Shown piece after piece: positions 43,906-63,620 of a stretch of DNA of 64,000 nucleotides (the first letter of the stretch is position 1; every line of letters starts with the position of its first letter). The notes under the pieces are model-generated. The model was not told where the DNA came from. It ran no database searches and saw nothing but the letters and a program-made list of their open reading frames with translations. The translations under genes and the position numbers were made by a program. Source of the stretch: Dyella halodurans (lineage in GTDB: Bacteria > Pseudomonadota > Gammaproteobacteria > Xanthomonadales > Rhodanobacteraceae); the NCBI RefSeq assembly GCF_026283925.1, contig NZ_JAPDPF010000003.1, positions 62,001-126,000 on the forward strand. The letters run 5' to 3'.

Positions 43906-44868
43906 TTAGCCCACCGGCGGCGGCACGCGCCGGCCAGCCTGGCCCTGCAGCGGATTCTGCTGCTGGCTCAGCGATTCCTTGGCCAGCTCGGCAATGCCGG
44001 CGAGCGAACCGAGGATGCCGGTCGCCTCCATCGGCAGCAGCAACATCTTCTGGTTCGGCGAGTTCGCCATTTCCTTCAGCGCCTCGACGTATTTGTTCGC
44101 CACGAAGTAATTGAGCGCGTTGATATTGCCGTTGGCGATCGCTTCGGAAACCATCGCGGTCGCCTTGGCCTCGGCCTCGGCCGAACGCTCGCGCGCTTCG
44201 GCGGCGCGGAAGGCCGCTTCCCTTTCACCTTCGGCGGCCAGGATCACCGATTGCTTCTCGCCTTCGGCCTTGAGGATGGCCGCCTGGCGGAAGCCCTCGG
44301 CATCGAGGATATTGGCGCGTTTCTCGCGCTCGGCCTTCATCTGGCGGGCCATCGAATCGATCAGGTCACGCGGAGGCGCAATGTCCTTGATCTCGATGCG
44401 GTTGACCTTGACGCCCCAGGGATGGGTCGCCTCGTCGACTACCGACAGCAGCTTGGCATTGATGGCGTCACGCTGGCTGAGCGATTCGTCCAGGTCCATC
44501 GAGCCCAGCACGGTGCGGATATTGGTCATCACCAGGGCCAGCGCCGCCTGCTCCAGGTTGGCGACCTCGTAGGCGGCCTTGGCGGCGTCCAGCACCTGGT
44601 AGAACACCACGCCGTCCACCCGTACGACGGCGTTGTCCTTGGTGATGACGTCCTGCGACGGCACGTCCAGCACCTGCTCCATCATGTTCATCTTGCGGCC
44701 GATGCCGTACATGATGGGGATCAGGAAATGCAGGCCGGGAGTGAGCGTGCGCGTGTACATGCCGAAGCGCTCCACCGTCCACTCGTAGCCCTGCGGCACG
44801 ATGCGCACCAGCTTGGCCAAGATGATCACGACGACGATGACTACCACCAACGCGAACAGCTGACCCAT
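43906..44868 (-). CDS. SPFH/band-7 paraslipin (QmcA-like)
   Basis: A 320-residue stomatin-like protein. N-terminal hydrophobic segment ([18 protein letters not shown]), then the SPFH domain from [14 protein letters not shown] to [10 protein letters not shown] long Ala/Glu-rich coiled coil follows ([33 protein letters not shown]) and a C-terminal region with [10 protein letters not shown]. These oligomerise into large cages on the inner membrane. Length and order match QmcA/paraslipins. Downstream NfeD gene 27 bp away completes the standard operon. The start is ATG at 44866-44868. Confidence 0.93.
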
Positions 44869-48106: not shown

Positions 48107-48197
48107 TCGTCTCTTGCACATGTAGACGTGGATGCAGCTCCACGCCAAAAGGTTGCCATCTTTCGCACGATCCGTCGCGGGTCAAGGGCGGCGGCCA

Positions 48198-48995
48198 TCA
48201 AGCGCTCGGCGGAACGGGGGGAGCCGGGGGTGTCGGTGGAGCGGGTGGCGCGCTGGGCAGCAAGTCCTCGCGGGCCTGCGCGGACAAGGCCACCCCGTGC
48301 TCGACGCCATGGCGCCGTACCGTCAGCGGCATCGGCGACGTGCCGTGCTCGCGCAGGCGACTGAGCAAGGCCGCCACATCGTGTACGGGCTGGCCATCCG
48401 CCTCGATGATCACATCGCCCTGGGCCAGTCCCCACAGGGAGGCCGGGGTCAGCGCAGCCACGGTGACGCCGCCTTCGCTGGCGGTGACCAGATGCAGGCG
48501 CTGGCCATCGCTGCGCCAGCGCAGGCTGTTGTCGGATTGGTAGACGAAACGGCTGTGGCTTGCGGCGACCGGCGCTGCAGGGGCAGCGGGAGGCTGCGGT
48601 GCAACCGGCGGCTTGGGTGACGGCGCGGGCACCAGATCATGCGCCTGGGCCGCCAGCGTGACCGTGCGCTCGACGCCAGCCTGGCGCAGCTTGAGCGGCA
48701 TCGGCGAGGCATCGTGTGCGCGCAGCGTGTTCAACAGCTCGGCCACGTCGTGAACCGGGTGGCCATCGGCTTCCACGATGATGTCGCCTTCGCTCAGTCC
48801 CCACAGCGAGGCGGGTGTGATGCCGGCCACTTGGACGCCACCGTCCTTGACCGTGGCCAAATGCAGATAGCGGCCCTCGCTATGCCAGCGCAAGGTGTTG
48901 TCGGAGCGGTAGGAAAACTCGGTAGCCGCCCAAGCAGTCGCCACGGGCGCCAGCAAGGCTGCGACCAACCACACTGTCTTGATCGATCGTTGCAT
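48198..48995 (-). CDS. Periplasmic tandem-PDZ protein
   Basis: A 265-residue protein with signal peptide MQRSIKTVWLVAALLAPVATAWA. Two near-identical PDZ-like modules occupy residues of about 26-116 and 147-243. Each begins with an F-[SV]-Y-[RQ]-S-D-N element and carries ASLWGLxxGDxIxEADGxPVHDVA and the SPMPL strand. They are joined by a Pro/Ala linker, and a Pro-rich tail follows. No protease domain is present, so it is a stand-alone peptide- or protein-binding module. It lies between the sigma54 regulator and the DUF885 peptidase. The second module looks like a recent internal duplication of the first. Confidence 0.85.
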   Translation of the reverse strand: MQRSIKTVWLVAALLAPVATAWAATEFSYRSDNTLRWHSEGRYLHLATVKDGGVQVAGITPASLWGLSEGDIIVEADGHPVHDVAELLNTLRAHDASPMPLKLRQAGVERTVTLAAQAHDLVPAPSPKPPVAPQPPAAPAAPVAASHSRFVYQSDNSLRWRSDGQRLHLVTASEGGVTVAALTPASLWGLAQGDVIIEADGQPVHDVAALLSRLREHGTSPMPLTVRRHGVEHGVALSAQAREDLLPSAPPAPPTPPAPPVPPSA

Positions 48996-49059: not shown

Positions 49060-50883
49060 TCAACCGGCCACCGGATGAGCGGGCGCCTTGCCCGCCTTCA
49101 CCGCAGCGATCCATGCGTTGATGCGCATTTCAAGCACGTCCAGCGGCAGCGCGCCGCCACCGAGCACTTCGTCGTGGAAGGCGCGGATGTCGAACTGGTC
49201 GCCCAGCTCCTTCTTTGCATGCTCACGCAGCTCGACGATCTTCAGCTGGCCCATTTTGTACGCCAGCGCCTGGCCCGGCCAGGTGATGTAGCGGTCGGTT
49301 TCGGCCTGCACATCCGGCTCGTCTTCGCTGGAATGCTCGTGGAAGAAGTCCACCATCTGCTGGCGCGTCCAGTGCTTGCTGTGCACGCCGGTGTCGAGCA
49401 CGAGGCGGTCGGCACGCAGCAGTTCGTCGGAGAGGCGGCCGTAGTAGGACAGCGGGTCCTTGTAGAAGCCCAGCTCCTTGCCCAGCTGCTCCGCATACAG
49501 CGCCCAGCCCTCGATATACGCGTTGTAGCCCGCCTGCTGGCGGAACGGCGGCAGCTTGGGCAGCGACTGCGCGATCGAGATCTGCATGTGATGGCCGGGA
49601 ATGCCTTCGTGGTAGGCGGTCGACTCGATGGTCAGCACGCTGCGGTTGGCGTAGTCACCGGTGTTGACGAAGATCTGGCCCGGACGCGAACCATCGGGCG
49701 TGCCCTGGTGGTATTCGGCGGCGGCCGCTTCCTTCTCGCGGAACGGCTCCACCGGCACCACTTCCACCTTGGTCTTGGGCAGCAGGCCGAACAGCTTCGG
49801 CAGTTCCGGCTGCATGCCCGCCAGGTAGTTGCGGTAGCGGTTGAGAATGTCCTCACGCGAGGTGGCGTGCGTCTTCGGGTTGGTCTTGAGGGCGGCGCGG
49901 AAGCTCGCCAGGTCCTTGTAGCCCTGCGACTTGGCCACCTCGGTCATCTCGCCTTCGATGCGCTTCACTTCGGCCAGGCCGATTTCATGAATGCGCTCCG
50001 GGCTTTCCTTGGTGGTGGTCATCTGCTCGACATCGAAGCGGTAAATCGCCTCGCCGTTCGGCAGCTGCCAGACGCCAGGTTCGCTGCGGCCGTGCGGCGC
50101 GTAATCCTTCGCCACGAACTCGCCCAGCTTCTGGTAGGCCGGACGCACGTCCTGATCGATGGCCGCAAGAATGGCGTCGTGCAGGCGCTTCTGATCCGCC
50201 GGCGACACCGACTTCGGGAAATGTTTGAGCGGCTCGGCGAAAACGCTGTCCATGCCGGCGGGCTTGCCGATGCTGTCGATCTGGGTGACGACCTTCTCCA
50301 GCAGGTACTTCGGCGGCATCATGCCGTCCTTCAGGCCCTGCTGTGCCACGCTCGTCACCTGCTCGAGCAAGGTTGGCACGGCCTTGAGGCGCGTCAGGTA
50401 ATCGTCGTATTCCTTGGTGCTGTTGAACGGGACGGAGCTGACGAAACCAGCCAGCGCAAGGTGCGCGCCGCTCATCTGGTCCAGCGGCATCTCGTCGATC
50501 TTCAGGTCATGCGCCTTGAGGGCGTCCTGCAGCTGACGCACCATCAGCTGCTGGTTCAGCTTGTCGTCGTCGGAGAAGCCGGTGGTGTCGATCGCCTGGA
50601 AGCGCTTCAGGAAATCCTGGTTCTTCGCATACTCGGCCTTGGCGTGTGCCAGTGAGGCGTCGCTCCAGCGGTCGTTGTAGCGCAGGTCGCCAATGATGGT
50701 GGCGAACTCCGGCGCGTTTTCCAGATTGTGCTGCCACTGCTCAGCCAGCAAGGCATTCAGCGCCTTCACGCGCGTCGCCACGTCCGCCTGCGTCGCCGGC
50801 GCCGGCGCCGCCGCCTGTACGCTGGCCACACCTGCGGCCGACATCAACAAACCCGCCAGAACCATACGCGGTCCGATTTTCAT
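49060..50883 (-). CDS. DUF885-family exported metallopeptidase-like protein
   Basis: A 607-residue protein. Signal peptide MKIGPRMVLAGLLMSAAGVASVQA; long helical body. Near residue 425-435 is the zinc-type motif STAYHEGIPGHHMQ (HExxxH-like: His-Glu then HH), followed by EGWALYAEQLGKELG, which supplies further ligand candidates. Matches the DUF885 group, regarded as M2/M3-like metallopeptidases but poorly characterised. ATG at 50881-50883 with GGAAGGG upstream is preferred; a longer frame into the neighbouring permease gene is not credible. It is 98 bp downstream of the last ABC permease gene, on the same strand. Confidence 0.88.
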   Translation of the reverse strand: MKIGPRMVLAGLLMSAAGVASVQAAAPAPATQADVATRVKALNALLAEQWQHNLENAPEFATIIGDLRYNDRWSDASLAHAKAEYAKNQDFLKRFQAIDTTGFSDDDKLNQQLMVRQLQDALKAHDLKIDEMPLDQMSGAHLALAGFVSSVPFNSTKEYDDYLTRLKAVPTLLEQVTSVAQQGLKDGMMPPKYLLEKVVTQIDSIGKPAGMDSVFAEPLKHFPKSVSPADQKRLHDAILAAIDQDVRPAYQKLGEFVAKDYAPHGRSEPGVWQLPNGEAIYRFDVEQMTTTKESPERIHEIGLAEVKRIEGEMTEVAKSQGYKDLASFRAALKTNPKTHATSREDILNRYRNYLAGMQPELPKLFGLLPKTKVEVVPVEPFREKEAAAAEYHQGTPDGSRPGQIFVNTGDYANRSVLTIESTAYHEGIPGHHMQISIAQSLPKLPPFRQQAGYNAYIEGWALYAEQLGKELGFYKDPLSYYGRLSDELLRADRLVLDTGVHSKHWTRQQMVDFFHEHSSEDEPDVQAETDRYITWPGQALAYKMGQLKIVELREHAKKELGDQFDIRAFHDEVLGGGALPLDVLEMRINAWIAAVKAGKAPAHPVAG

Positions 50884-50981: not shown

Positions 50982-52196
50982 TCAAACTGAACGCGTGGCC
51001 ACCACCGGTGGCACCGCCGCCGCCCGCAGGGCGGGGCCGAGCACGGCCAGCTGGCCGAGCAGCCACAATGAGACGGCACCCATGGGCAGGTAATACAGCG
51101 GCAGGCGCGGCAGCTCGTAGAACTTCATGAGCGCCAGGTTCAGTCCAAACGCCAGCACCATGCCGACGAGGATGCCGCCACTGACGATCAGGAAATTCTC
51201 GGTCTGGAAGTAGCTGAGAATGTCCTGCCGGGTGGCACCGATGGCGCGTCGGATACCGATCTGCTTGCGGCGTTGCTGTACCCAGAAACTGGCCAGGCCG
51301 ACGATGCCCAGGGCGGTGACCAGCAGCAGCGAGGCGATGACGGCCACCAGGATGCCCGTCATGGTGCGGTCCTGTTGGAAGAAGCTTTCGCGCAAATCGC
51401 CGATGGTTTGCGTGCCCTGCAGGTCGAGCACGGCGTCCGGGGCCACCTTGGCAATCGTCTCGCGAGCATCACGCAGTACGCGGCGGATATCGGCGGGAGC
51501 CGCCTTGATCAAATAACTGCCGGAAAGCCCCGGCCCAGGCTGCGCCGGCAGGAAGGCCGACCAGCCCCCGGTGCCGGCGCCCCATAGGGCGGGAGCGGGC
51601 ACCACCAGGCGATCGATAACACCGACCACCTGGTAGTGCAAGGGCTTGCTCCAGATCGACTTGCCCAGCGGATCCTCGCCAGGCCACAAGTGCTCGGCCA
51701 GCTCCCTGGTCACCAGCACGGGCGCGAAACTCGGCATCAAGCCGGAGAACGACTGATAGTCCTCCGCCTGCAGGGCCCGACCCGCCACCAGGTGAAACCC
51801 CAAGGCCTCCGCGCTGCCCGGGCCGCCGAGGTAGAACTCGATCACGCCGCCGCGATGCAGCCCCTCGGCATCGGTGGTGATGCCCATCGAGCCGCGTCGC
51901 TCGCCGAACGGAATGGAATTGAGCACGCTGACCGACTGCACGCCGGGAATGGCGCGCAAACCCGCCGTCACCCGCGCGTTGACATCCACCGACTGGCGGT
52001 CTTCGTAGCCGCTGATCGTCAGCGAGGCGAGCGAGGCTTCATCGACGCCGCTCTGGATATGCATGTCCCGGACGCGATTGGCGATCAGGAAACAGGCGTT
52101 GCATAACACCGCACAGGCAAGCGCGATCTCCAGGCCGATCAACATCGCGGCGAGCCGGTGACGGCGCAGGGCAGAAAGTATGGGTCGTATCTGCAT
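50982..52196 (-). CDS. MacB/FtsX-type ABC permease, type B, copy 4
   Basis: A 404-residue permease. Short N-terminus (MQIRPILSALRRHRLAAML) leading into the first membrane span, a periplasmic MacB-type domain (about 45-260), and three C-terminal spans of the FtsX core. The cytoplasmic loop after the second span reads QQRRKQIGIRRAIGATRQDI. It ends RAAAVPPVVATRSV, the hallmark tail shared by all four type-B copies. Closest to copy 3 (PFG in the periplasmic domain). It is the last gene of the ABC operon, 7 bp after type A copy 4. With a type A subunit it presumably forms a heterodimeric permease served by the single ATPase at 61406. Confidence 0.9.
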   Translation of the reverse strand: MQIRPILSALRRHRLAAMLIGLEIALACAVLCNACFLIANRVRDMHIQSGVDEASLASLTISGYEDRQSVDVNARVTAGLRAIPGVQSVSVLNSIPFGERRGSMGITTDAEGLHRGGVIEFYLGGPGSAEALGFHLVAGRALQAEDYQSFSGLMPSFAPVLVTRELAEHLWPGEDPLGKSIWSKPLHYQVVGVIDRLVVPAPALWGAGTGGWSAFLPAQPGPGLSGSYLIKAAPADIRRVLRDARETIAKVAPDAVLDLQGTQTIGDLRESFFQQDRTMTGILVAVIASLLLVTALGIVGLASFWVQQRRKQIGIRRAIGATRQDILSYFQTENFLIVSGGILVGMVLAFGLNLALMKFYELPRLPLYYLPMGAVSLWLLGQLAVLGPALRAAAVPPVVATRSV

Positions 52197-52203
52197 GGGG
52201 CCC

Positions 52204-53526
52204 TCAGAGTGTCTTCAATTGCAGGCCGGGTGCCACGCGACTGGCCCGGGCGGCCGGCAGCACGCCAGCGATTAGACTGGTGGCGATGGCAAGCGCAAAC
52301 GTGAGCAGGAACATGCGGCCGTCGAGATAAGCCAGATCGGCAAAGGCCACCGGCTGGCCACGCACGACCCACAGCCCGAGCAAGGTCAGCAGCAGGCCAC
52401 CCACACCGCCGAGCAAGCCAACCATGCCTGCCTCGACCAGGCATTGCGCGAAGATGGCAGCGCGACTGGCACCCAGCGCCCGACGCACGCCGATCTCACC
52501 GGAACGGCGCAGGAATTTCGCCAGCAGCAGCCCGATGGTGTTGAACAAACAAATGGCAAGAAACGCGAACGCGAGCCAGGTCTGCAGGCGCACGTCGCTT
52601 GGCACTACGCCATTGAAGTCCAGCCATTCCATCAAGCTGCGCAAGCGCGTGTTCTGCGGTCGCACCACGCGACCCAAGGCGTGCTGCTCGGCCGCGTAGC
52701 CATCGAGGAAGCGCTTGAACGCGGTCACCTTGGCCGGGCTGTTCAATTGCACCCACACACCCAGCCATACGCACGGCGCGTTCTGCAGATGGCCCGGGGT
52801 CGACGGTGGCAGCCAACAGGTGAACTGATAGAAATTGCCGTCGTTGATTTCCAGGCCACTGGTGAACGGTGTGAACACATCCTGCGGCTTGCTGTAGAAG
52901 TCGGCGGTCTTGCCCGCGGCGAAACGGCCGCCGGCCACGGTGTAGAACTGCGGCGATGGTCGCCACGGCGCCAGCACGCCAACGATGCGCACATCGGTAT
53001 CGCGCAGGCGCAGCGTACGGCCCACGCTGTTGGCGCCCTGGAACAACCGGGCATTGAGGTCGGCGGAGATCACCGCCACGCGGGCATGCTTGTCGTCATC
53101 CTCGGCGCGCCACGGCCCGCCATACTGAAACGGCACGTCGAACATCGGGAAGAAGTCGGCCGTGGTCGACAGCATCGATGGCATCAGCGGCGGCAACGAG
53201 GCATCCGGTGCGCGCAGCTTCACCGCGCTATCGACCACCACGGTCTGCCGGTCGGCCAGATGGGCATTCAGGATGTCCATGGCGGTCGGATAGTCGAGCT
53301 TGTCCAGCGGCTGCTTGCGCTGCTCCGGCGACGGATCGGTATCGACCTGCGCGTAGAACAGCGAGCCGCTGCGTCCCGGCAGCGGATCGCCCGACAGCAG
53401 ATGCATCACGGTCAAGGTGGTCATGCTGGCGCCGATGCCTACCGCGATCGCCAGCACCATCAGCGCGGTGAGCACGCTGTTACGACGCAGGCCGCGCCAT
53501 GCCAGTTCAAGATAGTAGCCAAACAT
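52204..53526 (-). CDS. MacB/FtsX-type ABC permease, type A, copy 4
   Basis: A 440-residue permease. It begins MFGYYLELAWRGLRRNSVLT before the first membrane span (VLAIAVGIGASMTTLTV), then GDPLPGRSGSLFYAQ opening the large periplasmic domain. Three C-terminal spans follow, with GLLLAKFLRRSGEIGVRRAL as the cytoplasmic coupling segment; ends LQLKTL. Most similar to type A copy 3 (both share LSGDPxPGRS). It lies 45 bp after type B copy 3 and 7 bp before copy 4 of type B. No ATP-binding domain is fused, unlike canonical MacB. Confidence 0.9.
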   Translation of the reverse strand: MFGYYLELAWRGLRRNSVLTALMVLAIAVGIGASMTTLTVMHLLSGDPLPGRSGSLFYAQVDTDPSPEQRKQPLDKLDYPTAMDILNAHLADRQTVVVDSAVKLRAPDASLPPLMPSMLSTTADFFPMFDVPFQYGGPWRAEDDDKHARVAVISADLNARLFQGANSVGRTLRLRDTDVRIVGVLAPWRPSPQFYTVAGGRFAAGKTADFYSKPQDVFTPFTSGLEINDGNFYQFTCWLPPSTPGHLQNAPCVWLGVWVQLNSPAKVTAFKRFLDGYAAEQHALGRVVRPQNTRLRSLMEWLDFNGVVPSDVRLQTWLAFAFLAICLFNTIGLLLAKFLRRSGEIGVRRALGASRAAIFAQCLVEAGMVGLLGGVGGLLLTLLGLWVVRGQPVAFADLAYLDGRMFLLTFALAIATSLIAGVLPAARASRVAPGLQLKTL

Positions 53527-53571
53527 CCCTATCTCCCCGTAGCGCCGCCCGTAACGGGCGGCGGCCTTCCA

Positions 53572-54792
53572 TTACACCGAACGCGTCGCCACCACCGGCG
53601 GCACCGCCGCTGCGCGCATGGCCGGACCGAGTACCGCCAGCTGACCGATCACCCATAGCGAGAGCGCACCTACCGGGAAGTAGATCGCCGGCAGGCGAGG
53701 CAACTCGTAATGCAGCATCAGCATCAGGTTGATGCCGTAGGCGAGCACCATGCCCAGCGCGATACCGATGGTGGCGAGCAGGAAATTCTCGGTCTGGAAG
53801 TAGTGCAGGATGTTCCGACGGGTCGCGCCCAGCGCACGCCGCACGCCGATCTGCCGGCGCCGCTGCGCCACCCAGAAGCTGCCCAGGCCGACGATGCCCA
53901 GGGCCGTCACCACCAGCAGGGCGATGCATACGCCCACCAGCAAGCCGGCCATGGCGCGGTCGTTCTGGAAGAAGTTGCTGCGCACCTCGTCCCACGGCCG
54001 CTGCTTCAGGATGACACGATGCGGATTGATCGCCTTCATCTTGGCCACGGCGGCCTTCAGCACGGCGTCGCGATTCTGCGGATCGGTGCGGATGATGTAG
54101 AGACCCTGGGTGATGCGCATCGGCAGCACCATGGTGAACTCGGCGGTGGCATTGTCGGTGAAGGCTGGCCGCACCAGATGCTTCACCACGCCCACCACCG
54201 TCATCGGGTAATCGGCGTAGTAGATCACCTTGCCGAGCGGCTGCTGTCCGGGCCACAGGCGTTGCGCCAGGCTCTGCGTGATGACGGTGACCTTGGGAAT
54301 GCCCTTTGCGTCCTTGACCGAGGCGGCCCTGACCACATCGTCGAAATCCATGTAGTCGTCGGGCTGCAGGTTGCGCCCCTCGACCAGTTGCGTGCCCAGC
54401 GTCTGCAGCACGTTCTCGCCCGTGTAGGTCGTGGCATTGAGCGTCGACACACGCTGGTTGCGGTCGAGCTTGATACCGCCGTTCCACGAGGAATTGCCGA
54501 ACGGCACCTGGTTCGCCGACGACACCTGCAGCACCCCAGGAATTTGCCGCAGCGCAGCCAGATCTTCCGCGGTCCGTGCTTTCTGGTTCTTGTTCGGGCC
54601 GATGTCGGCAAACAGGATTTCCAGCAACTCGTGCTCGGCCACGCCGCTGGTCATATGCATGCGGTCGAGGCGCTGGTTGATGAGGAACACCGCGTTGCAC
54701 ACGATGGCGCAGGTCAAGGCGATCTCGATGATCACCAGGAAGGCGGTGATCTTGTGACGACGCAGTGTCGAAAGAATCGGCAGGATGTCCAT
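53572..54792 (-). CDS. MacB/FtsX-type ABC permease, type B, copy 3
   Basis: A 406-residue permease: MDILPILSTLRRHKITAFLV, first span with LTCAIVCNAVFLI, periplasmic domain starting near MHMTSGV, three C-terminal spans with WVAQRRRQIGVRRALGATRR and the conserved tail RAAAVPPVVATRSV. The two lower-position copies (3 and 4) share features absent from copies 1 and 2, such as PFG instead of SYPLRGGGW in the first periplasmic region. It starts 10 bp after type A copy 3. Confidence 0.9.
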   Translation of the reverse strand: MDILPILSTLRRHKITAFLVIIEIALTCAIVCNAVFLINQRLDRMHMTSGVAEHELLEILFADIGPNKNQKARTAEDLAALRQIPGVLQVSSANQVPFGNSSWNGGIKLDRNQRVSTLNATTYTGENVLQTLGTQLVEGRNLQPDDYMDFDDVVRAASVKDAKGIPKVTVITQSLAQRLWPGQQPLGKVIYYADYPMTVVGVVKHLVRPAFTDNATAEFTMVLPMRITQGLYIIRTDPQNRDAVLKAAVAKMKAINPHRVILKQRPWDEVRSNFFQNDRAMAGLLVGVCIALLVVTALGIVGLGSFWVAQRRRQIGVRRALGATRRNILHYFQTENFLLATIGIALGMVLAYGINLMLMLHYELPRLPAIYFPVGALSLWVIGQLAVLGPAMRAAAVPPVVATRSV

Positions 54793-54802
54793 GGCGTTGT
54801 CC

Positions 54803-56107
54803 TTACTGGCTCTTCAGTTGCAGCGCAGGAGTGATCTGGCAGGCGCGCCAGGCGGGCAGCAGGCCGGCCAACAGGCTCGACCCCACGGCCAACAGGAAGG
54901 TGATCAACAGCATCGACATGTCCAGGTGCGCGAGCGCCGCGTAGTCGGAAGGTTGCTTGCGCACCAGCCACAGGCCGAGAAAGGCCAGCAGCAGGCCGCC
55001 CGCGCCGCCGGCGAGGCCGATGACGCCCGACTCCACCAGCAGCTGGGCAAACACCTCGCGCTTGGACGCGCCCAGTGCGCGGCGCACACCCAGCTCACCC
55101 GAACGGCGCAGGAATTTCGCCAGCATCAGGCCCACCGTGTTGACCAGGCAGACCAGCAGGAAGCCGAAGGCCAGCCAAGTCTGCAGGCGCACATCGCCGG
55201 GCACGACCTTGTTGATGTCCAGCCACTCCATCAAGGCAGGCAGGCGCACATTGGGCGGCCGTTGAAAGCGGCCCATCGCCTTCTGTTCCTGCGAGTAATG
55301 CAGCAGGTATTCCTTGTAGGCGGCGGCATCGCCGGTGCTGCTCAACTGCACCCAGAATTGCAGCCACACGCAGGGCGCGGTTTCGAGGTGCTCTTCATCG
55401 CCACCGCCGGTGCCCCAGCAATCCATCGAGCCGTTGTGGTCAAAGCGCAGCTCGCGCGCGGTGGTGAGCGGCAGGAACACATCTTCCGACGCGACATAGT
55501 TGCCCATGTTCATGTCGTAGAAGTGCGGATTCGGCCGCCAGCTGTCCAGCACGCCGATCACGCGGAAGGCGCTATCGCCCATGCGCAGGGTCTGGCCGGT
55601 GCTGTCCTTGCCGGCGAACAGCTTGTCGTTGAGCGTGCGGGTGATCACCACCACGCGCGCCTTGTCATTGTCATCTGCCTCGCTCCAGCCACGGCCGAAC
55701 AGGAACGGCACCTGGAACATGGCGAAGAAGTCGTCCGAGGTGTAACGCGCATCGGCGTAAAACGGGTCCATGCCCGACTGCGCTGGCTGCACCGGTACCG
55801 CGCCACCGGTCATGAGGGCCTGGTGCAGGCCCCGCTTGGCATGCAGCAGGTTCATGCCGTCGATCCAGGTGACCTGTTGCATCGGCTCCTTGCCGGGCTC
55901 GTAGCCGTCCATGTCCTGCGGATCGAGCTGCGGGTAGAACAGCGTCGCGCTCCTGCCAGGCATCGGGTCACCCGACAGCACATGCAGCACGGTCAGCGTG
56001 GTCATGCTGGCGCCGATGCCGAGCGCAATGGCCAGCACCATCAACGCGGTGAGCGTCTTGTTGCGCCTGAGGCTGCGCAGCGCCAAATCCAGGTAGTAGC
56101 CGAACAT
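54803..56107 (-). CDS. MacB/FtsX-type ABC permease, type A, copy 3
   Basis: A 434-residue permease: MFGYYLDLALRSLRRNKTLT, first span with IALGIGASMTTLTVLHVLSG, the GDPMPGRSATLFYPQ periplasmic opening, and C-terminal FtsX core with LMLAKFLRRSGELGVRRALG; ends LQLKSQ. It is 33 bp after type B copy 2. Membrane topology is one N-terminal and three C-terminal spans, as in MacB without the ATPase. Confidence 0.9.
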   Translation of the reverse strand: MFGYYLDLALRSLRRNKTLTALMVLAIALGIGASMTTLTVLHVLSGDPMPGRSATLFYPQLDPQDMDGYEPGKEPMQQVTWIDGMNLLHAKRGLHQALMTGGAVPVQPAQSGMDPFYADARYTSDDFFAMFQVPFLFGRGWSEADDNDKARVVVITRTLNDKLFAGKDSTGQTLRMGDSAFRVIGVLDSWRPNPHFYDMNMGNYVASEDVFLPLTTARELRFDHNGSMDCWGTGGGDEEHLETAPCVWLQFWVQLSSTGDAAAYKEYLLHYSQEQKAMGRFQRPPNVRLPALMEWLDINKVVPGDVRLQTWLAFGFLLVCLVNTVGLMLAKFLRRSGELGVRRALGASKREVFAQLLVESGVIGLAGGAGGLLLAFLGLWLVRKQPSDYAALAHLDMSMLLITFLLAVGSSLLAGLLPAWRACQITPALQLKSQ

Positions 56108-56140
56108 ACGTTTCCCCTCGCTTCCTGACTTTTCGTGCGG

Positions 56141-57370
56141 TCAGACCGACCGCGTGGCCTCTACCGGAGGCACCCGTGATGCACGCATCGCCGGCGCCAG
56201 CACCGCGCCTTGGCCCAACAACAACAGGATCACCACGCCTGCCAGCACATACACCAGCGACAGCCGATTCATCTCGAAGCGCGTGACCAGCCACAAATTG
56301 ATCGCAACGGCCAGCAGCACGCCAAACAACGCACCCGCACTGCTGATCAACAGGTTCTCGGTCATGAAGTAGTTGAGAATGTCGCGCTGGGTGGCACCCA
56401 GGGCACGCCGCACGCCAATCTGCTTGCGCCGCTGGCCCACCCAGAAGCTGGTGAGGCCCACGATGCCCGCCGCCGTGATGGCCAGCAGCACCACGCAGAT
56501 CACCCCCATCAGTATCGCCATGCCGCGATCACGCTCGTAGGCACGGGACCGCACTTCCGTAAAGCTCAGCAGGCCGTCCTGTTCATTGATGATGCGGCGC
56601 GGATTGTGCGCGAACAGCGCCTTCGACGCCGCCTTCATCGCCGCGTCCAGCTGGCCGGGACGTGCGCGCACGATATAGAACGTACCAATCGTCGAGGCCA
56701 GCCGCTTGGGAATGATGGTGGAGCGATGCGCAAACTCGGCCGCCCAACGGTCGACGCTCTGCGCCTGCAGCACGTCGACCACGCCGACGATGGTGCCGGG
56801 GCCGCCGACCATGTAAATGGTCTTGCCTACCGCGTCACCATTCGGGAACAGCTTGTCGGCCAGTGCCTTGGTGACGATCATCTGCGGCGGTGCCAGCGTG
56901 TCGCGCACATCCATGGCGGCGATTTCATCGGCGCGGAAGTTGCGGCCGGCGATCAGCTTCAGGCCCAGCGTATCGATGAAATGATCGTCCGCGAAGTAGA
57001 CCGTGGATCCCGTCGTGTCCTGCTGCTGGTCGGGCTTCAACTTGATGCCGTCGTCCCAACCGCCGCCGCGCAACGGATAGGAGTTGCTGGGCGTCGCGTC
57101 CTGCACGCCGGCCAGCTGACGCAGCACCACCAGGTCCTCGCGGATCTTGGCATCGGCCTGCTGCGGCGTCGACGTTCCCACCCATTCGTTCTGGATCACG
57201 AAGATATCCGCCTCATCCAGCCCGGTCGGCTCGGACAAGTGGCTCACGCGCTGGTGAATGATGAACAGCGCATTGCAGACGATGGCGAGCGTCAGGGCGA
57301 TCTGCATCGCGATCAGGAAGGTGCCCGCCTTGTGACGGCGCAACGCGGAAAGAATCGGCTTGATCTGCAC
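56141..57370 (-). CDS. MacB/FtsX-type ABC permease, type B, copy 2
   Basis: A 409-residue permease beginning at GTG (57368-57370): QIKPILSALRRHKAGTFLI, first span ALTLAIVCNALFII, periplasmic domain with NSYPLRGGGWDDG and LIAGRNFRADEI, FtsX core with WVGQRRKQIGVRRALGATQR and FMTENLL, tail VPPVEATRSV. Very close to copy 1 (SYPLRGGGW and AGRNFR shared), showing a recent duplication. It lies 15 bp after type A copy 2. Confidence 0.9.
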   Translation of the reverse strand: MQIKPILSALRRHKAGTFLIAMQIALTLAIVCNALFIIHQRVSHLSEPTGLDEADIFVIQNEWVGTSTPQQADAKIREDLVVLRQLAGVQDATPSNSYPLRGGGWDDGIKLKPDQQQDTTGSTVYFADDHFIDTLGLKLIAGRNFRADEIAAMDVRDTLAPPQMIVTKALADKLFPNGDAVGKTIYMVGGPGTIVGVVDVLQAQSVDRWAAEFAHRSTIIPKRLASTIGTFYIVRARPGQLDAAMKAASKALFAHNPRRIINEQDGLLSFTEVRSRAYERDRGMAILMGVICVVLLAITAAGIVGLTSFWVGQRRKQIGVRRALGATQRDILNYFMTENLLISSAGALFGVLLAVAINLWLVTRFEMNRLSLVYVLAGVVILLLLGQGAVLAPAMRASRVPPVEATRSV

Positions 57371-57385
57371 GGTTCGCTCCTCGCC

Positions 57386-58708
57386 TCAGTTGGACTTCAG
57401 CTGCCAGGCGGGCTGCACTTGCGCCGCCCGCCAGGTGGGATAGAACGCAGCCAACACCGTGGCGGCAATTGCCACCAGCAAGGTCAGTGCGACCAGGGAC
57501 AGATCCAGGTGCGCCAAACGGGCGATCTGTGGCTCGAACACCAGGCCGACGCCCCAGATGCCCAAGCCAGTCAGCAACAGTCCGAGCACGCCACCGGCCA
57601 GACCGACCATGCCGGCCTCAGCGAGGAACTGGCGATAGATGTCGGCACGCGACGCACCCAGCGCGCGGCGCACGCCGATCTCCGGCGCACGGCGCATGAA
57701 CTTGGCCAGCAGCAGGCCGATCGTGTTGACCAGACAGATCAACAGAAAGCCCAGCGCCAGCGATAGCGAAATGCGGCTTTCCGGCGGCACGGCGTGCAGG
57801 AAGTCGAGCCATTCACGCACGTTGCGCAAGCGATTGTTCGGCGCCCAGTTGAAACGGCCAGCACGACGCTGGTCATTGGCGTAGCTGTCGAGGAATTGCC
57901 GATAGGCCGCCACCTTCGACGCGCTGTTCAGCTCGACCCAGGGACTGACCCAGACGCACTCGCCATGCAGCCAGCTGTCGCGATCGTCACCGCGCTTGCC
58001 GTCGCTGCCGCAGTTGTTGTTGCCGTAGGTTTCGATCTTCTGGTCGATCGCATACGTGAACGGGATATAGATCTGCGCGGGATCGGCGAATTCATTGCCG
58101 TCGAACAAGTCGTAGAAGCGCGGCTTGGGATCCCAGTTGTCCATCACCCCGACGACCCGGTACTGGCGGTCATCCATGGTGATGCGCCGCCCCACGCTGT
58201 TCTGCCCGGCGAAGAGTTTCTGGTTGAGGCTGCGGCTGATCACCACGATGGCCTCGCGCGATTCGTCCTCGACGCTACCCCAGGGATTGCCATACAGGAA
58301 CGGCGCCTCGAACATCGGAAAGAAATCGCCATAGGTGGCATAGCCGGTGGCCTTGAATGGCATCTTGCTCGAGTCACCCGGCATCACCGACAAGCTCACC
58401 GGGTACAACAGGGTCTGGCGATCCGCCCGGTGCGCGCGCATCAGCGCCATCGCATCGGTATAGGTAAGCGCACTCGGCGGCTCGCCATGGCGATTGAATT
58501 GCGGACCGCGGTTGTCGATCAGCGGCACGAACAGCTGTGACGACTTCTGCGGTATCGGGTCGCCCGACACGGCGCGAAACACCGCGAACGTCACCATCGA
58601 AGCCGCCACGCCAAAACCAATCGACATGATCATCAAGGCGGTCAGCAGCGGATTGCGGCGCAGGCTGATGGCGCCCAAACCCAGGTTGTGCATGAACATG
58701 CCGCTCAT
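57386..58708 (-). CDS. MacB/FtsX-type ABC permease, type A, copy 2
   Basis: A 440-residue permease. It starts at ATG 58706-58708 (MSGMFMHNLGLGAISLRRNP), chosen because GAGGTG lies just upstream; the longer frame to 58759 adds unsupported residues. The first span has IGFGVAASMVTFAVFRAVSG, then the periplasmic SSQLFVPLIDNRGPQ segment, then the FtsX core LLLAKFMRRAPEIGVRRALG; ends PAWQLKSN. It shares SSQLFVPLIDN and the C-terminal tail with copy 1, so these two are sister copies. Type B copy 1 ends 74 bp upstream. Confidence 0.9.
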   Translation of the reverse strand: MSGMFMHNLGLGAISLRRNPLLTALMIMSIGFGVAASMVTFAVFRAVSGDPIPQKSSQLFVPLIDNRGPQFNRHGEPPSALTYTDAMALMRAHRADRQTLLYPVSLSVMPGDSSKMPFKATGYATYGDFFPMFEAPFLYGNPWGSVEDESREAIVVISRSLNQKLFAGQNSVGRRITMDDRQYRVVGVMDNWDPKPRFYDLFDGNEFADPAQIYIPFTYAIDQKIETYGNNNCGSDGKRGDDRDSWLHGECVWVSPWVELNSASKVAAYRQFLDSYANDQRRAGRFNWAPNNRLRNVREWLDFLHAVPPESRISLSLALGFLLICLVNTIGLLLAKFMRRAPEIGVRRALGASRADIYRQFLAEAGMVGLAGGVLGLLLTGLGIWGVGLVFEPQIARLAHLDLSLVALTLLVAIAATVLAAFYPTWRAAQVQPAWQLKSN

Positions 58709-58782
58709 AGCCACCTCACTGCGCACTCGCCATCCGCTGTTGCCCGAACACTCATCCAACGCTCCTTCGCTCTAACCATGGC

Positions 58783-60015
58783 TCAGACCGACCGGGTCGC
58801 CTCGACGGGCGGCACGCGCGCGGCCCGCATGGCCGGCGCAAGCACCGCGCCCTGCCCCAGCAGCAGCAAGGCCACCACGCCCACGGCCACGTACACCAGC
58901 GAGAGCCGCGCCATCTCGAATTGCGTCACCAGCCATAGATTCATGCCGATCGCGAGCAGCGCGCCAACGACCACGCCAGCGACACCGATCAGCAGGTTCT
59001 CGGTCATGAAATAGCTGAGGATGTCGCGCTGCGTGGCGCCCAGCGCTCGCCGCACGCCGATCTGCTTGCGGCGCTGGCCGACCCAGAAGCTGGTCAGGCC
59101 GACAATGCCCGCCGCGGTGATCGCCAGCAGCACCAGGCACACCACGCCCATCAGGATCGCCATGCCGCGGTCGCTCTTGTAAGCCTGTGCGCGTACGACG
59201 TCATACGTGCGCACGCCACGCTCGGAGGGGATCACGCGCATGCGGTTGAGCTTGTACAAGGTCTCCGGCACGGACTTGGTGATCGCCGCCAACTGGCCCG
59301 GTTTGCTGCGCACCATGTACGAGGTGCCGCCACCGGTGAGCTGGTAAGGCAGCAGCACGGCGTTGTCGAGGAAGGTGTCGGACCAGCTGCTGTTCCACGG
59401 CACTTCCAGCCGCTCGACGATGCCGATGATGGTGCTCGGCTTGGTGCCGTCATCGACGTACACCACCTTCCCCAGACCCGAGCCATCCGGAAACAGTTTG
59501 TCGGCCAGTGTCTTGGTGACCATGATCTGCGACGAGGCCACGACCGCCTTGGGATCCATTTCGACGATTTCGTCGGAGCGGAAGTTGCGCCCCGCCACCA
59601 GCTTCAAGCCCATCGTCGCGAGGGCATGGTCATCGACGAAATACTGGGTGGTATGCGTCTCGGACTTCTTGGCATCCGGGTTGGTGCGCACGCCGGTCGA
59701 CCAGCCGCCGCCGCGCAAGGGATACGAGTTGATCGAGATGGCGTCTTCGACACCCGGCAGCTGGCGGATCGCCTGCACGTCGGCGCGAATGAGCGGGCCA
59801 GTCTTTTCGTCATCCACGCCGACCCAGCGGTTCTGCAGGGTCAACAGGTCCGTTTCGATCATGCCGGTGGGGCGCGCGATGCGGTCCAGGCGTTGCTGGA
59901 TGATGAACAGCGCGTTGCAGACGATGGCCAGGGTCAGCGCGATCTGCAAGGCGATCAGGATCGTGCCTGCCTTGTGGCGCTTGAGTGCGGCGAGGATGGG
60001 CTTGATTTGCAGCAT
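58783..60015 (-). CDS. MacB/FtsX-type ABC permease, type B, copy 1
   Basis: A 410-residue permease: MLQIKPILAALKRHKAGTIL, first span ALTLAIVCNALFII, periplasmic NSYPLRGGGWSTG and VAGRNFRSDEI, FtsX core WVGQRRKQIGVRRALGATQR and FMTENLLIG, tail VPPVEATRSV. It lies 10 bp after type A copy 1. The ATG is at 60013-60015. One of eight permeases in the operon. Confidence 0.9.
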   Translation of the reverse strand: MLQIKPILAALKRHKAGTILIALQIALTLAIVCNALFIIQQRLDRIARPTGMIETDLLTLQNRWVGVDDEKTGPLIRADVQAIRQLPGVEDAISINSYPLRGGGWSTGVRTNPDAKKSETHTTQYFVDDHALATMGLKLVAGRNFRSDEIVEMDPKAVVASSQIMVTKTLADKLFPDGSGLGKVVYVDDGTKPSTIIGIVERLEVPWNSSWSDTFLDNAVLLPYQLTGGGTSYMVRSKPGQLAAITKSVPETLYKLNRMRVIPSERGVRTYDVVRAQAYKSDRGMAILMGVVCLVLLAITAAGIVGLTSFWVGQRRKQIGVRRALGATQRDILSYFMTENLLIGVAGVVVGALLAIGMNLWLVTQFEMARLSLVYVAVGVVALLLLGQGAVLAPAMRAARVPPVEATRSV

Positions 60016-60025
60016 GGTCGTCGCC

Positions 60026-61339
60026 TCAGTTGGATTTCAGCTGCCAGGCAGGCTGGACCTGCGCCGCACGCCAGGTGGGATAGAACGCCGCCAGCACCGT
60101 CGCCAGCACTGCCACCAGCAGGGTCAACGCGATCAGCGAGACGTTGAGCCGGGCCAGCCGCGCGATATCCGGATCGAACACCAGGGTCACGCCGAACACG
60201 CCGACACCGGTCAGCAACAGGCCCAGCAGACCGCCGGCCAGGCCCACCGTGCCTGCCTCGATCAGGAACTGTGCGTAGATCTCCTTGCGCGATGCGCCCA
60301 GCGCCCGGCGCACGCCGATTTCCGGCGCGCGCTTCATGAATTTCGCCAGCAGCAGGCCGACCGTGTTGACCAGGCAGATCAGCAGGAAGCCGAGCGACAC
60401 CAGCAGCGAGACCTTGGCCTCCTGCGGCACTACCTTCTCGTGGTCCAGCCATTGGGGGACGTTGTACAGGCGCACGTTCGGCGCCCAGTGGAAGCGGCCG
60501 CTGCGCTGCTGTTCGGCCGCGTAGCCGCGCAGATAGTCGCGATAGCCGGCCGCCGCCGTTTCGTCGGGCAATTCGGTCCAGTACTGGATCCACACGCATT
60601 CCGAGCGGATCCAGGCATCCCAGCCTTCACCGGCGTGCTTGTTGCAGTTGTTGTTGCCGTTCGTCGCCATCTTCAGGTCGATAGCGCGGGTGAACGGAAT
60701 GAACAGCTGGATCGGGTCACCGAAGCCCGAGGTGTTGACGGGATCGAAGAACAGCGGCTGCGGATCCCAGGTGTCCATCACGCCGGTGATGCGATAGTTG
60801 CGGCCGTCCAGGTTGATCTCGCGACCTACGCTGTTGGCGCCATTGAACAGCTTGTCGTTGAGCTTGCGCCCGATCACCACGGTCGCCGCATGCGCTTCGT
60901 CGTCTGCACTCTGCCAGGCGCCGCCGTACAGGAACGGCACGTTGAACATGGCGAACGCATCGGCATACACCGCGTAGCTGCTTTCGCGGATCGGCAGCAG
61001 GCTGGCATCGGCCGGAATCACCGAAGGCGCCACCGGGTACAGCGCGGTCTGCCGCTTGCCGCGGTGATCGCGCATCAGGCCCATGGCGTCGGTGTAGCTC
61101 ATCGCCTCGGGCGGCTCGCCCTTGTTTTGCGCCGCATCTTCCGGCCCCCAGTTGTCGATCAGGGGCACGAACAGCTGGGACGATTTGTCCGGTATCGGAT
61201 TGTTCGAGGTGGCGCGGAACACCGAATACGTGGTCATCGAGGCGGCCACGCCAAAGCCGATCGCCATCACCATCAGCGCTGTCAGCAAGGGATTGCGGCG
61301 CAAGCTGCGAAGGCCAAGCTGAATATAGTAAGCAAACAT
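60026..61339 (-). CDS. MacB/FtsX-type ABC permease, type A, copy 1
   Basis: A 437-residue permease: MFAYYIQLGLRSLRRNPLLT, first span with IGFGVAASMTTYSVFRATSN, periplasmic SSQLFVPLIDNWGPE, FtsX core LLLAKFMKRAPEIGVRRALG, tail PAWQLKSN. It is the first permease after the ATPase (66-bp gap). The topology and lack of an ATPase domain match the membrane half of MacB. It probably pairs with the type B subunit immediately downstream. Confidence 0.9.
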   Translation of the reverse strand: MFAYYIQLGLRSLRRNPLLTALMVMAIGFGVAASMTTYSVFRATSNNPIPDKSSQLFVPLIDNWGPEDAAQNKGEPPEAMSYTDAMGLMRDHRGKRQTALYPVAPSVIPADASLLPIRESSYAVYADAFAMFNVPFLYGGAWQSADDEAHAATVVIGRKLNDKLFNGANSVGREINLDGRNYRITGVMDTWDPQPLFFDPVNTSGFGDPIQLFIPFTRAIDLKMATNGNNNCNKHAGEGWDAWIRSECVWIQYWTELPDETAAAGYRDYLRGYAAEQQRSGRFHWAPNVRLYNVPQWLDHEKVVPQEAKVSLLVSLGFLLICLVNTVGLLLAKFMKRAPEIGVRRALGASRKEIYAQFLIEAGTVGLAGGLLGLLLTGVGVFGVTLVFDPDIARLARLNVSLIALTLLVAVLATVLAAFYPTWRAAQVQPAWQLKSN

Positions 61340-61405
61340 CGTTATCCGCTCTGGTGGTGATGACGGCCTCCCGACGGCGCGGGAGGTCTCATGGGTAGGC
61401 CCGGA

Positions 61406-62128
61406 TCAGGCCGGCGCGTTGTTGCGCGCCGCGTGCACGGCGTGGTGGAAGCGCGGGTCTTCCGCCAGATCCACGACCTGGCCGTCGATGATGTGCACGT
61501 TGCGCTGCGCGCGGGCGGCCAGCTCCGGATCATGCGTGACCATGACGATGGTGGCGCCCTCGCGATGGATCTCCTCGAGCAGTTCCATCACGCCGCGTGC
61601 CATCTGCGTATCCAGGTTGCCGGTCGGTTCGTCCGCCAGCAGCAGGCGCGGCGAGCCGGCCAGTGCACGGGCGATGGCGACGCGCTGCTGCTGACCGCCG
61701 GAGAGTTCGGCCGGATAGTGCTTGGCGCGCGAGGCCAGACCCACGCGTTCCAGCGCGTCCATGATGCGCTGCTTGCGCTCGGCCGCCTTCATGCCGCGAT
61801 AGCGCAGCGGCACTTCGACGTTGTCGAACACGTTGAGGTCGGGAATCAGGTTGAACGCCTGGAAGATGAAGCCGATCTTCTCGTTGCGGATCTTCGAGCG
61901 GGCGTTGTCGTTGAGGTTGCTCACCTCGACGCCGTCCAGGTGGTACTCGCCACCGGTGAAGGTTTCCAGCAGGCCGGCGATGGTGAGGAAGGTGGTCTTG
62001 CCGGAGCCGGACGGGCCGGTCACGGCGACGAACTCGCCTTCTTTCACATTGATGTTGAAGTCGCGCAGCGCGTAGGTCTCCACCACTTCGGTGCGGTAGA
62101 CCTTGGACAGGTGAGTCATCTTGAGCAT
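61406..62128 (-). CDS. MacB/LolD-type ABC transporter ATP-binding protein
   Basis: A 240-residue ATPase. Walker A GPSGSGKTTF, Q-loop in GFIFQAFNLIPDLNVFDN, signature LSGGQQQRVAIARAL, Walker B LLLADEPTG and switch His in VTHDPELAARA. Belongs to the MacB/LolD/FtsE subgroup that drives mechanotransmission rather than solute import. The ATG at 62126-62128 (MLKMTHLSKVYR) is preferred. It is the only ATP-binding gene in the operon, so it must serve all eight permeases if they are all functional. It is 60 bp after the adaptor gene. Confidence 0.95.
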   Translation of the reverse strand: MLKMTHLSKVYRTEVVETYALRDFNINVKEGEFVAVTGPSGSGKTTFLTIAGLLETFTGGEYHLDGVEVSNLNDNARSKIRNEKIGFIFQAFNLIPDLNVFDNVEVPLRYRGMKAAERKQRIMDALERVGLASRAKHYPAELSGGQQQRVAIARALAGSPRLLLADEPTGNLDTQMARGVMELLEEIHREGATIVMVTHDPELAARAQRNVHIIDGQVVDLAEDPRFHHAVHAARNNAPA

Positions 62129-62188
62129 GTGTGCTTCCTCAGTGGTGGTTGTCGCCCCTCCCCTTGCACGCAAGGGAGGGTTGGGTCG

Positions 62189-63460
62189 TTAGTTGCTGAT
62201 GGCGACGCGGGCCGCGCCCTTGAAGCTGTCGGTACCTGAGATCACGATGTTGTCGCCTTCCTTCAGGCCATCGAGAATCTCGACCTTGTCGATGCTGCTG
62301 GCACCCACGCGGATCGGATGCTTCTCGGCAATGCCGTCGCGCACGATGTAGGCATAGCTGCCACCCGATTCGTCGACGAAGGAACCACGCTGCACGGTCA
62401 ACACGTTGTCGCGCTTGTCGAGCAGGATGCGCACGGACAGGCGCTGGTTCTGGCGCAACTGCTTGGGCGTCTCGCCGTCGAAGCGCAGGCGTGCCGCCAC
62501 TTCGCCGTTGACCACTTCAGGCGAGATCGCGCTGACCAGGCCCTTCCAGGTGTTGCCGTTGCCGGTGATTTCGCCGCCCATGCCGATGCCCAGGTCGCGT
62601 GCGAAGCTTTCCGGCACCTTCATTTCCACTTCGAGCGCGGAGAGGTCGATGACACTGAGCAGCTGCGCGTCCTTGGCCACCGTGGCGCGTTCGGCGATGA
62701 ACAGCTGACCGACCTGGCCATCCACCGGCGACTTCACGTTGAGATCGTCGACCTGGCGCTGCAAGTCCTTCACCAGCAGCAGCTGGCGCTCATGGGCGAG
62801 CTTCTTGGACTGGATGTCGAACTCGAGGCTGTTGCTGTCCGTGCCCAGGTCGGCCTTGGCATGGCTCATGGTGATCTTGGCCTTTTGCAGCTCGTCCTTG
62901 GCCTTGTCCACGTTCATGCTCGGCACGGCGCCCAGCCCGAAGGCCTTCTCGTAACGAGCAAGGTCGCGCTCCGCGCCCTGCTGGTCGATCTGCGCGTTGT
63001 CGTAAGCCTTCTGCAATTCACCGCGCTTCTTGCGCGCGTCGATCTGGGCGCGCAGGTAATCCACCTGCATCGCATCGGCTGCGCTCTGTTCCTGCGCCAG
63101 CTTGTTGGTCAGTTCGGGGCTGTCGATGGTGGCAAGCACCTGGCCCTTCTTCACTGCATCGCCAGCGTGCACCTTCAAGGTCACGGCACCGCCGTAAGTG
63201 GCATAGAGGGTGGGGCTGACCGCTGCCACGACCTTGCCTTCGGCGGCGATGTCACGCACGAAGGGGCCACGCTGCACCGTGGCGAACGCCAGGCGCGAAC
63301 CGCTTACCGAGGCGTCGGCCGAGAACAGGCGGCCGATGCGCGGCGCGAACAGCGCCATCAGCACCAGCACGGCCACGCCGCCGCCGATCCACAGCAGGCG
63401 ACGCTTGCGATTGGGTTTGACCTCGACCAGTCGGTCTTGAGCGGAGGTGTCGCGAATCAT
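62189..63460 (-). CDS. HlyD/MacA-type periplasmic adaptor (membrane fusion protein)
   Basis: A 423-residue adaptor. N-terminal inner-membrane anchor (about 21-41; LLWIGGGVAVLVLMALF), lipoyl half-motifs (VHAGDAVKKGQVLATIDSPE and VKSPVDGQVGQL) flanking a long coiled coil (about 118-235), then beta-barrel and membrane-proximal domains ending LKEGDNIVISGTD. Connects an inner-membrane ABC transporter to the periplasm, possibly to TolC. No outer-membrane channel gene is encoded nearby. It is the first gene of the ABC operon; the ATG at 63458-63460 has AGGGA upstream and sits about 45 bp from a sigma54 promoter. Confidence 0.94.
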   Translation of the reverse strand: MIRDTSAQDRLVEVKPNRKRRLLWIGGGVAVLVLMALFAPRIGRLFSADASVSGSRLAFATVQRGPFVRDIAAEGKVVAAVSPTLYATYGGAVTLKVHAGDAVKKGQVLATIDSPELTNKLAQEQSAADAMQVDYLRAQIDARKKRGELQKAYDNAQIDQQGAERDLARYEKAFGLGAVPSMNVDKAKDELQKAKITMSHAKADLGTDSNSLEFDIQSKKLAHERQLLLVKDLQRQVDDLNVKSPVDGQVGQLFIAERATVAKDAQLLSVIDLSALEVEMKVPESFARDLGIGMGGEITGNGNTWKGLVSAISPEVVNGEVAARLRFDGETPKQLRQNQRLSVRILLDKRDNVLTVQRGSFVDESGGSYAYIVRDGIAEKHPIRVGASSIDKVEILDGLKEGDNIVISGTDSFKGAARVAISN

Positions 63461-63506: not shown

Positions 63507-63522
63507 GCAAGCGGCGTGCCAA
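63507..63522 (-). promoter_or_regulatory. Sigma54 promoter of the ABC export operon
   Basis: On the minus strand the sequence reads TTGGCACGCCGCTTGC, a close match to the sigma54 consensus TGGCACG-N4-TTGC with correct spacing. The expected start site lies about 12 bases downstream, near 63495, giving a leader of roughly 35 bases before the adaptor gene. A sigma54 activator is encoded in the same gene block at 46763-48106. Confidence 0.85.
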
Positions 63523-63578: not shown

Positions 63579-63620
63579 GCGGACAGCTGTCCGCGGACAA
63601 CTGGACGGACAAACGGACAA
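63579..63620 (-). promoter_or_regulatory. Candidate enhancer sites (GGACA palindromes) upstream of the sigma54 promoter
   Basis: A perfect palindrome GCGGACAGCTGTCCGC at 63579-63594 overlaps a second, TGTCCGCGGACA at 63588-63599. More GGAC(A) half-sites follow to about 63620. They lie about 60-110 bp upstream of the -24/-12 element, the usual distance for NtrC-type regulator binding. They begin 15 bp beyond the stop codon of the next gene. Confidence 0.65.

Follow-up and report, generated by a model that had tools for sequence, protein, structure and literature searches.

One ATPase and many paired permeases: a predicted sigma-54-controlled export locus of the MacB/Lol class in Dyella

How a single ATPase might serve eight permeases is the question raised by a ten-gene array in Dyella halodurans, a soil gammaproteobacterium of the family Rhodanobacteraceae. 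The array lies within a stretch of 64,000 nucleotides (contig NZ_JAPDPF010000003.1, positions 62,001 to 126,000), hereafter called the window. Its genes are all on the minus strand and run from position 63460 to 50982, encoding a periplasmic adaptor, an ATPase, and then four successive pairs of permeases of two types, A and B. We consider it probable that one sigma-54-controlled engine drives fixed, exchangeable A–B permease pairs, those of the array itself and probably also pairs encoded elsewhere. The evidence consists mainly of the shared descent of A and B partners, the constant presence of one adaptor and one ATPase in each array, and related permease pairs encoded elsewhere without an ATPase of this type.

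An intact array with a single ATPase

The layout given in the original prediction (one adaptor, one ATPase and four tightly spaced A–B pairs) is confirmed. A check for frame-breaking mutations found none, as each of the ten frames has a single terminal stop and none is broken. Intergenic gaps measure 7 to 66 bases, and we infer that the array is co-transcribed as one operon. A check for other ATPase genes nearby agreed with the prediction of a shared engine: of the 40 ATPase matches in the genome, a single one lies inside the array. This ATPase has the LSGGQ and H-loop motifs and both Walker motifs, A and B.

All eight permeases match FtsX (PF02687) and seven match MacB_PCD (PF12704), B4 being the exception. 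The claim that two permease types are each repeated four times also holds, with pairwise identities of 43–65% among A proteins and 39–61% among B proteins versus 24–32% between types. The identity matrices of the two types mirror each other, A1/A2 (65%) corresponding to B1/B2 (61%) and A3/A4 (54%) to B3/B4 (49%). Predicted structures of A3 and B3 resemble MacB, LolC/E and YbbP along the entire chain among the best 1000 chains from Foldseek, a whole-chain likeness that places the permeases in the type VII ATP-binding cassette (ABC) class (MacB/Lol/FtsX/YbbP).

Arrays in related bacteria

Named relatives of the adaptor come mostly from Dyella, Rhodanobacter, Frateuria and Fulvimonas. We fetched 60 loci around such relatives and retained 56, which together with the window give 57 arrays. 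The four loci left out (L100–L103) have adaptors only 24–31% identical and permeases that are not of the A–B type. They represent a second, distant family with the order adaptor, ATPase, two to four permeases, regulator and kinase, in which the permeases are 24–28% like B.

The 57 arrays hold 160 A–B pairs, from one to seven per array: 26 arrays have one pair, two have two, three have three, 15 have four, seven have five, two have six and two have seven. The sizes of two arrays that end at contig edges (L061 and L068) are lower bounds. A single adaptor and a single array-type ATPase occur in every array, and all A and B genes of the 57 are paired; apparent stray A and B genes in L045 and L052 proved to be an artefact of sorting stop-to-stop open reading frames (ORFs). 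One array (L094) has an additional ABC ATPase gene downstream, with 31% identity. In Dyella, for which we used 20 genomes (G000–G019, that of the window included), all 20 have an array, with three to five pairs each, and the arrangement is therefore not due to chance. In a sample of the class, an adaptor match at E 1e-60 was present in six of 185 genomes, and the three of these from other orders carry one pair each. The base form is thus adaptor–ATPase–A–B, often with a regulator and a kinase, and multiplication of the pairs is seen inside the order only.

A and B permeases descend as pairs

We compared A and B histories over 179 pairs, comprising 160 from arrays and 19 orphan pairs (described below) found without an array-type ATPase. 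Distances in the A tree and the B tree are correlated with r 0.92. When B partners were shuffled within genomes the mean r was 0.15 and the maximum 0.28, and the observed value was reached in none of 500 shuffles. Moreover, the nearest relative of A and the nearest relative of B belong to the same pair in 153 of 154 testable pairs, those of genomes with more than one pair (mean 32.9 and maximum 53 when shuffled). Congruent histories indicate that the unit of descent is the A–B cassette rather than the single gene, which argues for fixed A–B heterodimers and not combinatorial mixes. The trees thus favour the suggestion that the two permease types form heterodimers, and assembly of each A–B pair into one appears likely.

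The same comparison disfavours the other part of that suggestion, a combinatorial exporter in which any A joins any B, so that one ATPase would serve as many as 16 heterodimers differing in substrate. A docking region that is alike among A proteins and among B proteins, and the encoding of all eight permeases in one gene row, would suit free mixing; partner histories are nevertheless shared, and A adjoins B in all of one 18-locus set and in all of 18 further orphan loci. We regard free mixing as quite unlikely.

The docking region, comprising the second transmembrane helix, the coupling helix and the third transmembrane helix, has 0.56–0.76 identity among paralogues of one genome, and the periplasmic blocks mostly 0.1–0.5. 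A conserved docking region with diverged periplasmic blocks suits one ATPase with many substrates, although this is a weak point of the argument for reasons given below. The coupling-helix motif is kept across the 179 pairs, the 19 orphans among them. The A proteins also have two cysteines in the periplasmic domain (C232 and C248 in A1), retained in at least 95% of the 179, which could possibly form a disulfide.

Permease pairs without an ATPase

The D. halodurans genome encodes 19 FtsX domains, 17 of which adjoin an ATPase of this class. The remaining two form an A–B pair on contig C24, where there is no ATPase match. This pair (L104, 6523–11719) comes after genes for BlaI (PF03965) and BlaR1 (PF05569). 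A BlaI–BlaR1–A–B locus without an ATPase is present in 15 of the 20 Dyella genomes, in one of which (L228) BlaR1 is split over two frames, and all 15 loci have twin sites resembling the BlaI operator consensus.

In a tree of 60 concatenated pairs, which took in five of the 15 BlaR1-linked orphans, these group as sister to the final pair of two seven-pair arrays (branch support 100/99), and all 15 group at the same place in a quicker tree. Orphans nest among array pairs, and well-supported branches of the 60-pair tree force at least three changes between array and orphan. An approximately unbiased (AU) test shows only that no single branch divides the 53 array pairs from the seven orphans; applied to the BlaR1-linked orphans alone it is uninformative, since any clade is one side of a branch.

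A further 20 family matches outside the known arrays resolved into 18 A–B loci (20 pairs) with neither adaptor nor array-type ATPase, and two loci (L327 and L328) that turned out to be arrays rather than orphans. No array-type ATPase was found in the 14–16 kb fetched at orphan loci such as L104, L236, L237 and L309–L312. Among the 22 orphan loci not linked to BlaR1, eight have the palindrome of the array promoter (see below) within 330 bases upstream of A, six of them with a sigma-54 site as well. Three of these eight (L309–L311) were chosen for having such sites; the palindrome occurs in four of 15 loci of the same fetch chosen regardless of sites and in one of four among L236–L239. In this upstream scan two of 23 rows (L236 and L239) start at the match and not at the start codon.

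Several orphan pairs have informative neighbours. That of L236 (2509–13477) lies by genes for chorismate mutase, prephenate dehydrogenase, a chorismate-binding/amidotransferase enzyme and a CmlA-type hydroxylase, presumably an aminophenylalanine-type natural-product cluster. In L238 (516–8930) the pair lies in a peptide-modifying cluster with a radical-SAM enzyme, a C39-peptidase ABC exporter and a 2-oxoglutarate oxygenase. Near the pairs of L319, L323 and L326 are a kinase-like gene and, in opposite orientation, a regulator-like one. In the acidobacterium Ca. Angelobacter, too, gene clusters often include MacB genes (PMC9723581).

Promoter, palindrome and a small two-cysteine protein

Upstream of the adaptor gene are a sigma-54 promoter and the palindrome TGTCCGCGGACA, which occurs at four places in the genome. 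The exact palindrome is present in 38 of the 57 array promoters and the strict sigma-54 pattern in 33; within Dyella the figures are 20 and 18 of 20. A first scan covered 76 array and orphan loci, or 2.86 Mb counting both strands, and gave 34 occurrences of the strict pattern: 33 precede adaptors and one precedes an orphan pair (L237). The combination of palindrome and promoter yields 57 sites in 24 of 41 genomes; the reversed pattern has no match in the same 41. Conservation and gene order suggest that the palindrome is probably the upstream activator site of an NtrC-type regulator, and that the regulator encoded downstream of the array is the one likely to bind it.

These 57 sites precede 24 adaptors, 26 members of a small-protein family (including a decayed copy, L272, and at least two tail-less paralogues), one orphan A–B pair and six other proteins with signal-like N-termini. 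Three of the six (L245, L261 and L266) are DUF4440/SnoaL-like proteins of about 165 residues, on the basis of one scanned fragment that scored below cut-off, and the others have about 390 (L267 and L270) or 216 (L254) residues.

The small protein, of about 66 residues, is found behind palindrome and promoter in all 20 Dyella genomes. It has one hydrophobic anchor and a C-x-LPPDG-V/I-VCPR tail with two cysteines, and D. halodurans has a second, tail-less paralogue. All 20 Dyella genomes have a member of it, as do 20 of 29 other Rhodanobacteraceae (two of them weak matches) and none of 32 genomes from other families, which makes 40 of 81. Two members scanned against Pfam and NCBIfam gave no match up to E 0.1. 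An analogue is MgrB, a small protein of the membrane whose two cysteines lie in the periplasm and which restrains PhoQ (PMC10576120). MacAB exports a small disulfide peptide from the periplasm (PMC5985334). By analogy, the small protein may be an MgrB-like brake on the kinase, or cargo.

Comparison with known systems

The array is like a hybrid of MacAB and LolCDE, and by score and architecture falls outside MacAB, LolCDE, the darobactin exporter and the fused ADOP family. With MacAB–TolC it shares an adaptor, a MacB-type periplasmic domain and the FtsX permease fold; however, its ATPase is a separate protein, and there are two permease types and several pairs per engine. The permeases reach 28–51 bits against a MacB equivalog cut-off of 966, and the adaptor 59.5 bits against a MacA cut-off of 342. 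LolCDE similarly has two related permeases and one stand-alone ATPase, but the array differs in having an adaptor and several pairs per ATPase. Its scores are below the Lol cut-offs: 24.7–28 bits against 362 for lolCE (TIGR02212) in the five of eight permeases that match, and 221 bits against 308 for LolD. YbbAP, in contrast, has a fused permease and no adaptor. The best NCBIfam match of the array ATPase is the darobactin protein DarD (258 bits, cut-off 375), and the adaptor matches DarC (78.6 bits, cut-off 450); DarB, unlike the paired A and B, is one 777-position permease, and the array permeases score at most 25.8 bits against its cut-off of 700.

The permeases also recall ADOP, listed as "ADOP family duplicated permease". 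A proteins align to positions 4–401 and B proteins to positions 410–801 of the 803-position TIGR03434 profile, as its N-half and C-half, respectively. However, ADOP is one fused protein of about 800 residues, whereas here A and B are separate genes; the eight proteins have 404–457 residues and score 157–189 bits each against a cut-off of 622. The array also differs in having its own ATPase, adaptor and two-component system. ADOP permeases are called orphans when there is no ATPase gene nearby. The array has such a gene, and no array-type ATPase was found close to the orphan A–B pairs. Two Dyadobacter genomes have 28 and 33 copies of ADOP-type "orphan permeases of unknown function" (PMC11573002).

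The idea of one ATPase for several transporters has a counterpart in MsmK, which serves several sugar ABC importers (PMC4519317). MsmK serves importers, whereas ours, judging by genomic correlates, would be an exporter-type ABC system with an adaptor and with permease pairs both in the array and dispersed. Our searches of open-licence papers turned up no account of this array, of A–B pairs lacking an ATPase in Rhodanobacteraceae, or of type VII ABC systems that share an ATPase.

A proposed single engine with exchangeable permease pairs

The proposed export machine of the MacB/Lol class would consist of one engine and several exchangeable heads. The engine would be one cytoplasmic ATPase dimer and one periplasmic adaptor. 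Each A–B pair would assemble as a fixed heterodimer, docking the common ATPase through its coupling helices and selecting the substrate with its two diverged periplasmic domains. Sigma-54 and the NtrC-type regulator encoded downstream would switch the operon on, with the kinase probably sensing envelope stress as the trigger. Substrates, perhaps peptides or natural products, would be taken up from the periplasmic side and exported outward through an outer-membrane channel encoded elsewhere. In addition, the array ATPase would power A–B pairs at other places in the genome that lack their own ATPase, and would be shared both in cis and in trans. The gene content of the operon supports the predicted shared engine, and the ATPase-less pairs do so indirectly. 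The other suggested meaning, an envelope-defence exporter, would accord with the MacB-like fold, the predicted sigma-54/NtrC control and the BlaI–BlaR1 link. A wider form of the proposal, towards which we lean with less assurance, is that this single sigma-54-controlled ATPase–adaptor locus energises a genome-wide set of split ADOP permeases, with the small two-cysteine protein in the circuit as kinase brake or cargo. The heads would then be found in the array, behind copies of the same promoter, under sensors of their own such as BlaI–BlaR1, and in natural-product-like clusters.

A number of observations weigh against this proposal. The C-terminal end of the permeases is as conserved as the docking region (0.68–0.79), which weakens the argument from docking. 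No outer-membrane channel was found among the array genes. The palindrome is missing upstream of A in 14 of the 22 orphan loci not linked to BlaR1, and neither palindrome nor strict promoter was found at any of the 15 BlaR1-linked loci; most orphans thus give no sign of control in common with the array. Movement from array to orphan is the simpler reading of the tree, yet gains and losses are both possible. Two of the 18 further orphan loci do include, over 4 kb from the pair, a gene for a distantly related ABC ATPase (29% and 36% identity), and the contig of L238 stops just past B, so that an ATPase gene could follow.

The orphan pairs might instead be powered by another type VII ATPase (LolD, FtsE or YbbA-like). 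D. halodurans has eight further ATPases with 40–47% identity to that of the array, but six have their own FtsX domains beside them and the other two are importer ATPases of the MetN and CysA types. As orphans also nest among array pairs and some carry the array promoter, we think this alternative unlikely. A YbbA-like ATPase match with one internal TGA (G000:C19:461020-461715) lies by a 796-residue FtsX frame; it may be decayed, or its alignment may be over-long. L113 has a 241-residue ORF at that place.

We find equally improbable a role of the pairs in signalling instead of export, in which each would act as a sensor or mechanotransmitter in the manner of BceAB or FtsEX and inform a kinase of a ligand, with orphans perhaps working without ATP. 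Kinase and regulator genes do lie in the cluster, orphan pairs occur behind BlaI–BlaR1 or near kinase- and regulator-like genes, and BceAB-type sensing is known in this ABC class (PMC5985334). Against this, all 57 arrays include an adaptor, in keeping with a transenvelope exporter, and the coupling-helix motif is conserved in orphan and array pairs alike. Least probable to us is amplification of a MacAB-like pump for dosage, in which the pairs would be redundant copies for one substrate. A tandem array behind a single sigma-54 promoter might be expected of such a pump, but paralogues of the same type are only 39–65% identical and differ most in their periplasmic blocks, and classes of pairs persist as separate lineages across genera.

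Neighbouring genes and coordinates

The gene following the array encodes a DUF885 protein in 19 of the 20 Dyella loci, the remaining locus ending at a contig edge. Genes for a PDZ protein, the regulator, the kinase and a Band-7/SPFH protein lie beyond it in the window (Table 1).

Table 1. Positions of the array genes, control sites and neighbouring genes in the window, with two small-protein loci elsewhere in the same genome (pLDDT, predicted local distance difference test)
Feature	Position	Strand	Remarks
Palindrome TGTCCGCGGACA	63588..63599	.	Upstream of adaptor; = G000:C19:125588-125599
Sigma-54 -24/-12 promoter	63507..63521	-	TGGCACG-CCGC-TTGC; upstream of adaptor
HlyD/MacA-like periplasmic adaptor	62189..63460	-	PF16576, PF13437; TIGR01730 above cut-off
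Stand-alone ABC ATPase	61406..62173	-	Only one in array; PF00005; probable ATG start at 62128
Permease A1, ADOP N-half type	60026..61339	-	PF12704, PF02687; TIGR03434 positions 6-401
Permease B1, ADOP C-half type	58783..60015	-	PF12704, PF02687; TIGR03434 positions 411-801
Permease A2	57386..58759	-	Family profile matches; true start probably near 58700
Permease B2	56141..57370	-	Family profile matches
Permease A3	54803..56107	-	Profile matches; predicted structure, mean pLDDT 87.8
Permease B3	53572..54792	-	Profile matches; predicted structure, mean pLDDT 94.0
Permease A4	52204..53526	-	Family profile matches
Permease B4	50982..52196	-	FtsX domain, ADOP C-half match; no MacB_PCD match
DUF885 protein	49060..50883	-	PF05960, E 7e-174; ORF opens at 51066, probable start 50883
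Protein with two PDZ domains	48198..48995	-	Domain matches
NtrC-type response regulator	46763..48148	-	PF00072, PF00158, PF02954; presumed activator of sigma-54 promoter
Histidine kinase with HAMP domain	44937..46319	-	Weak PAS match; presumed sensor
Band-7/SPFH protein	43906..44868	-	Domain match; often adjoins kinase (3') across loci
Small-protein family locus (L275)	G000:C22:234544-234881		Palindrome and promoter upstream
Small-protein family locus (L274)	G000:C11:716021-716300		Palindrome and promoter upstream

Implications

If the proposed sharing is correct, it would give the MacB/Lol class a shared-ATPase scheme, of which we found no example for this class in open-licence papers, and it would answer the question of what energises "orphan" ADOP permeases, namely one ATPase acting in trans. 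The promoter would then help to locate some of the heads across a whole genome, and the gene clusters around a few of them may hint at their substrates.

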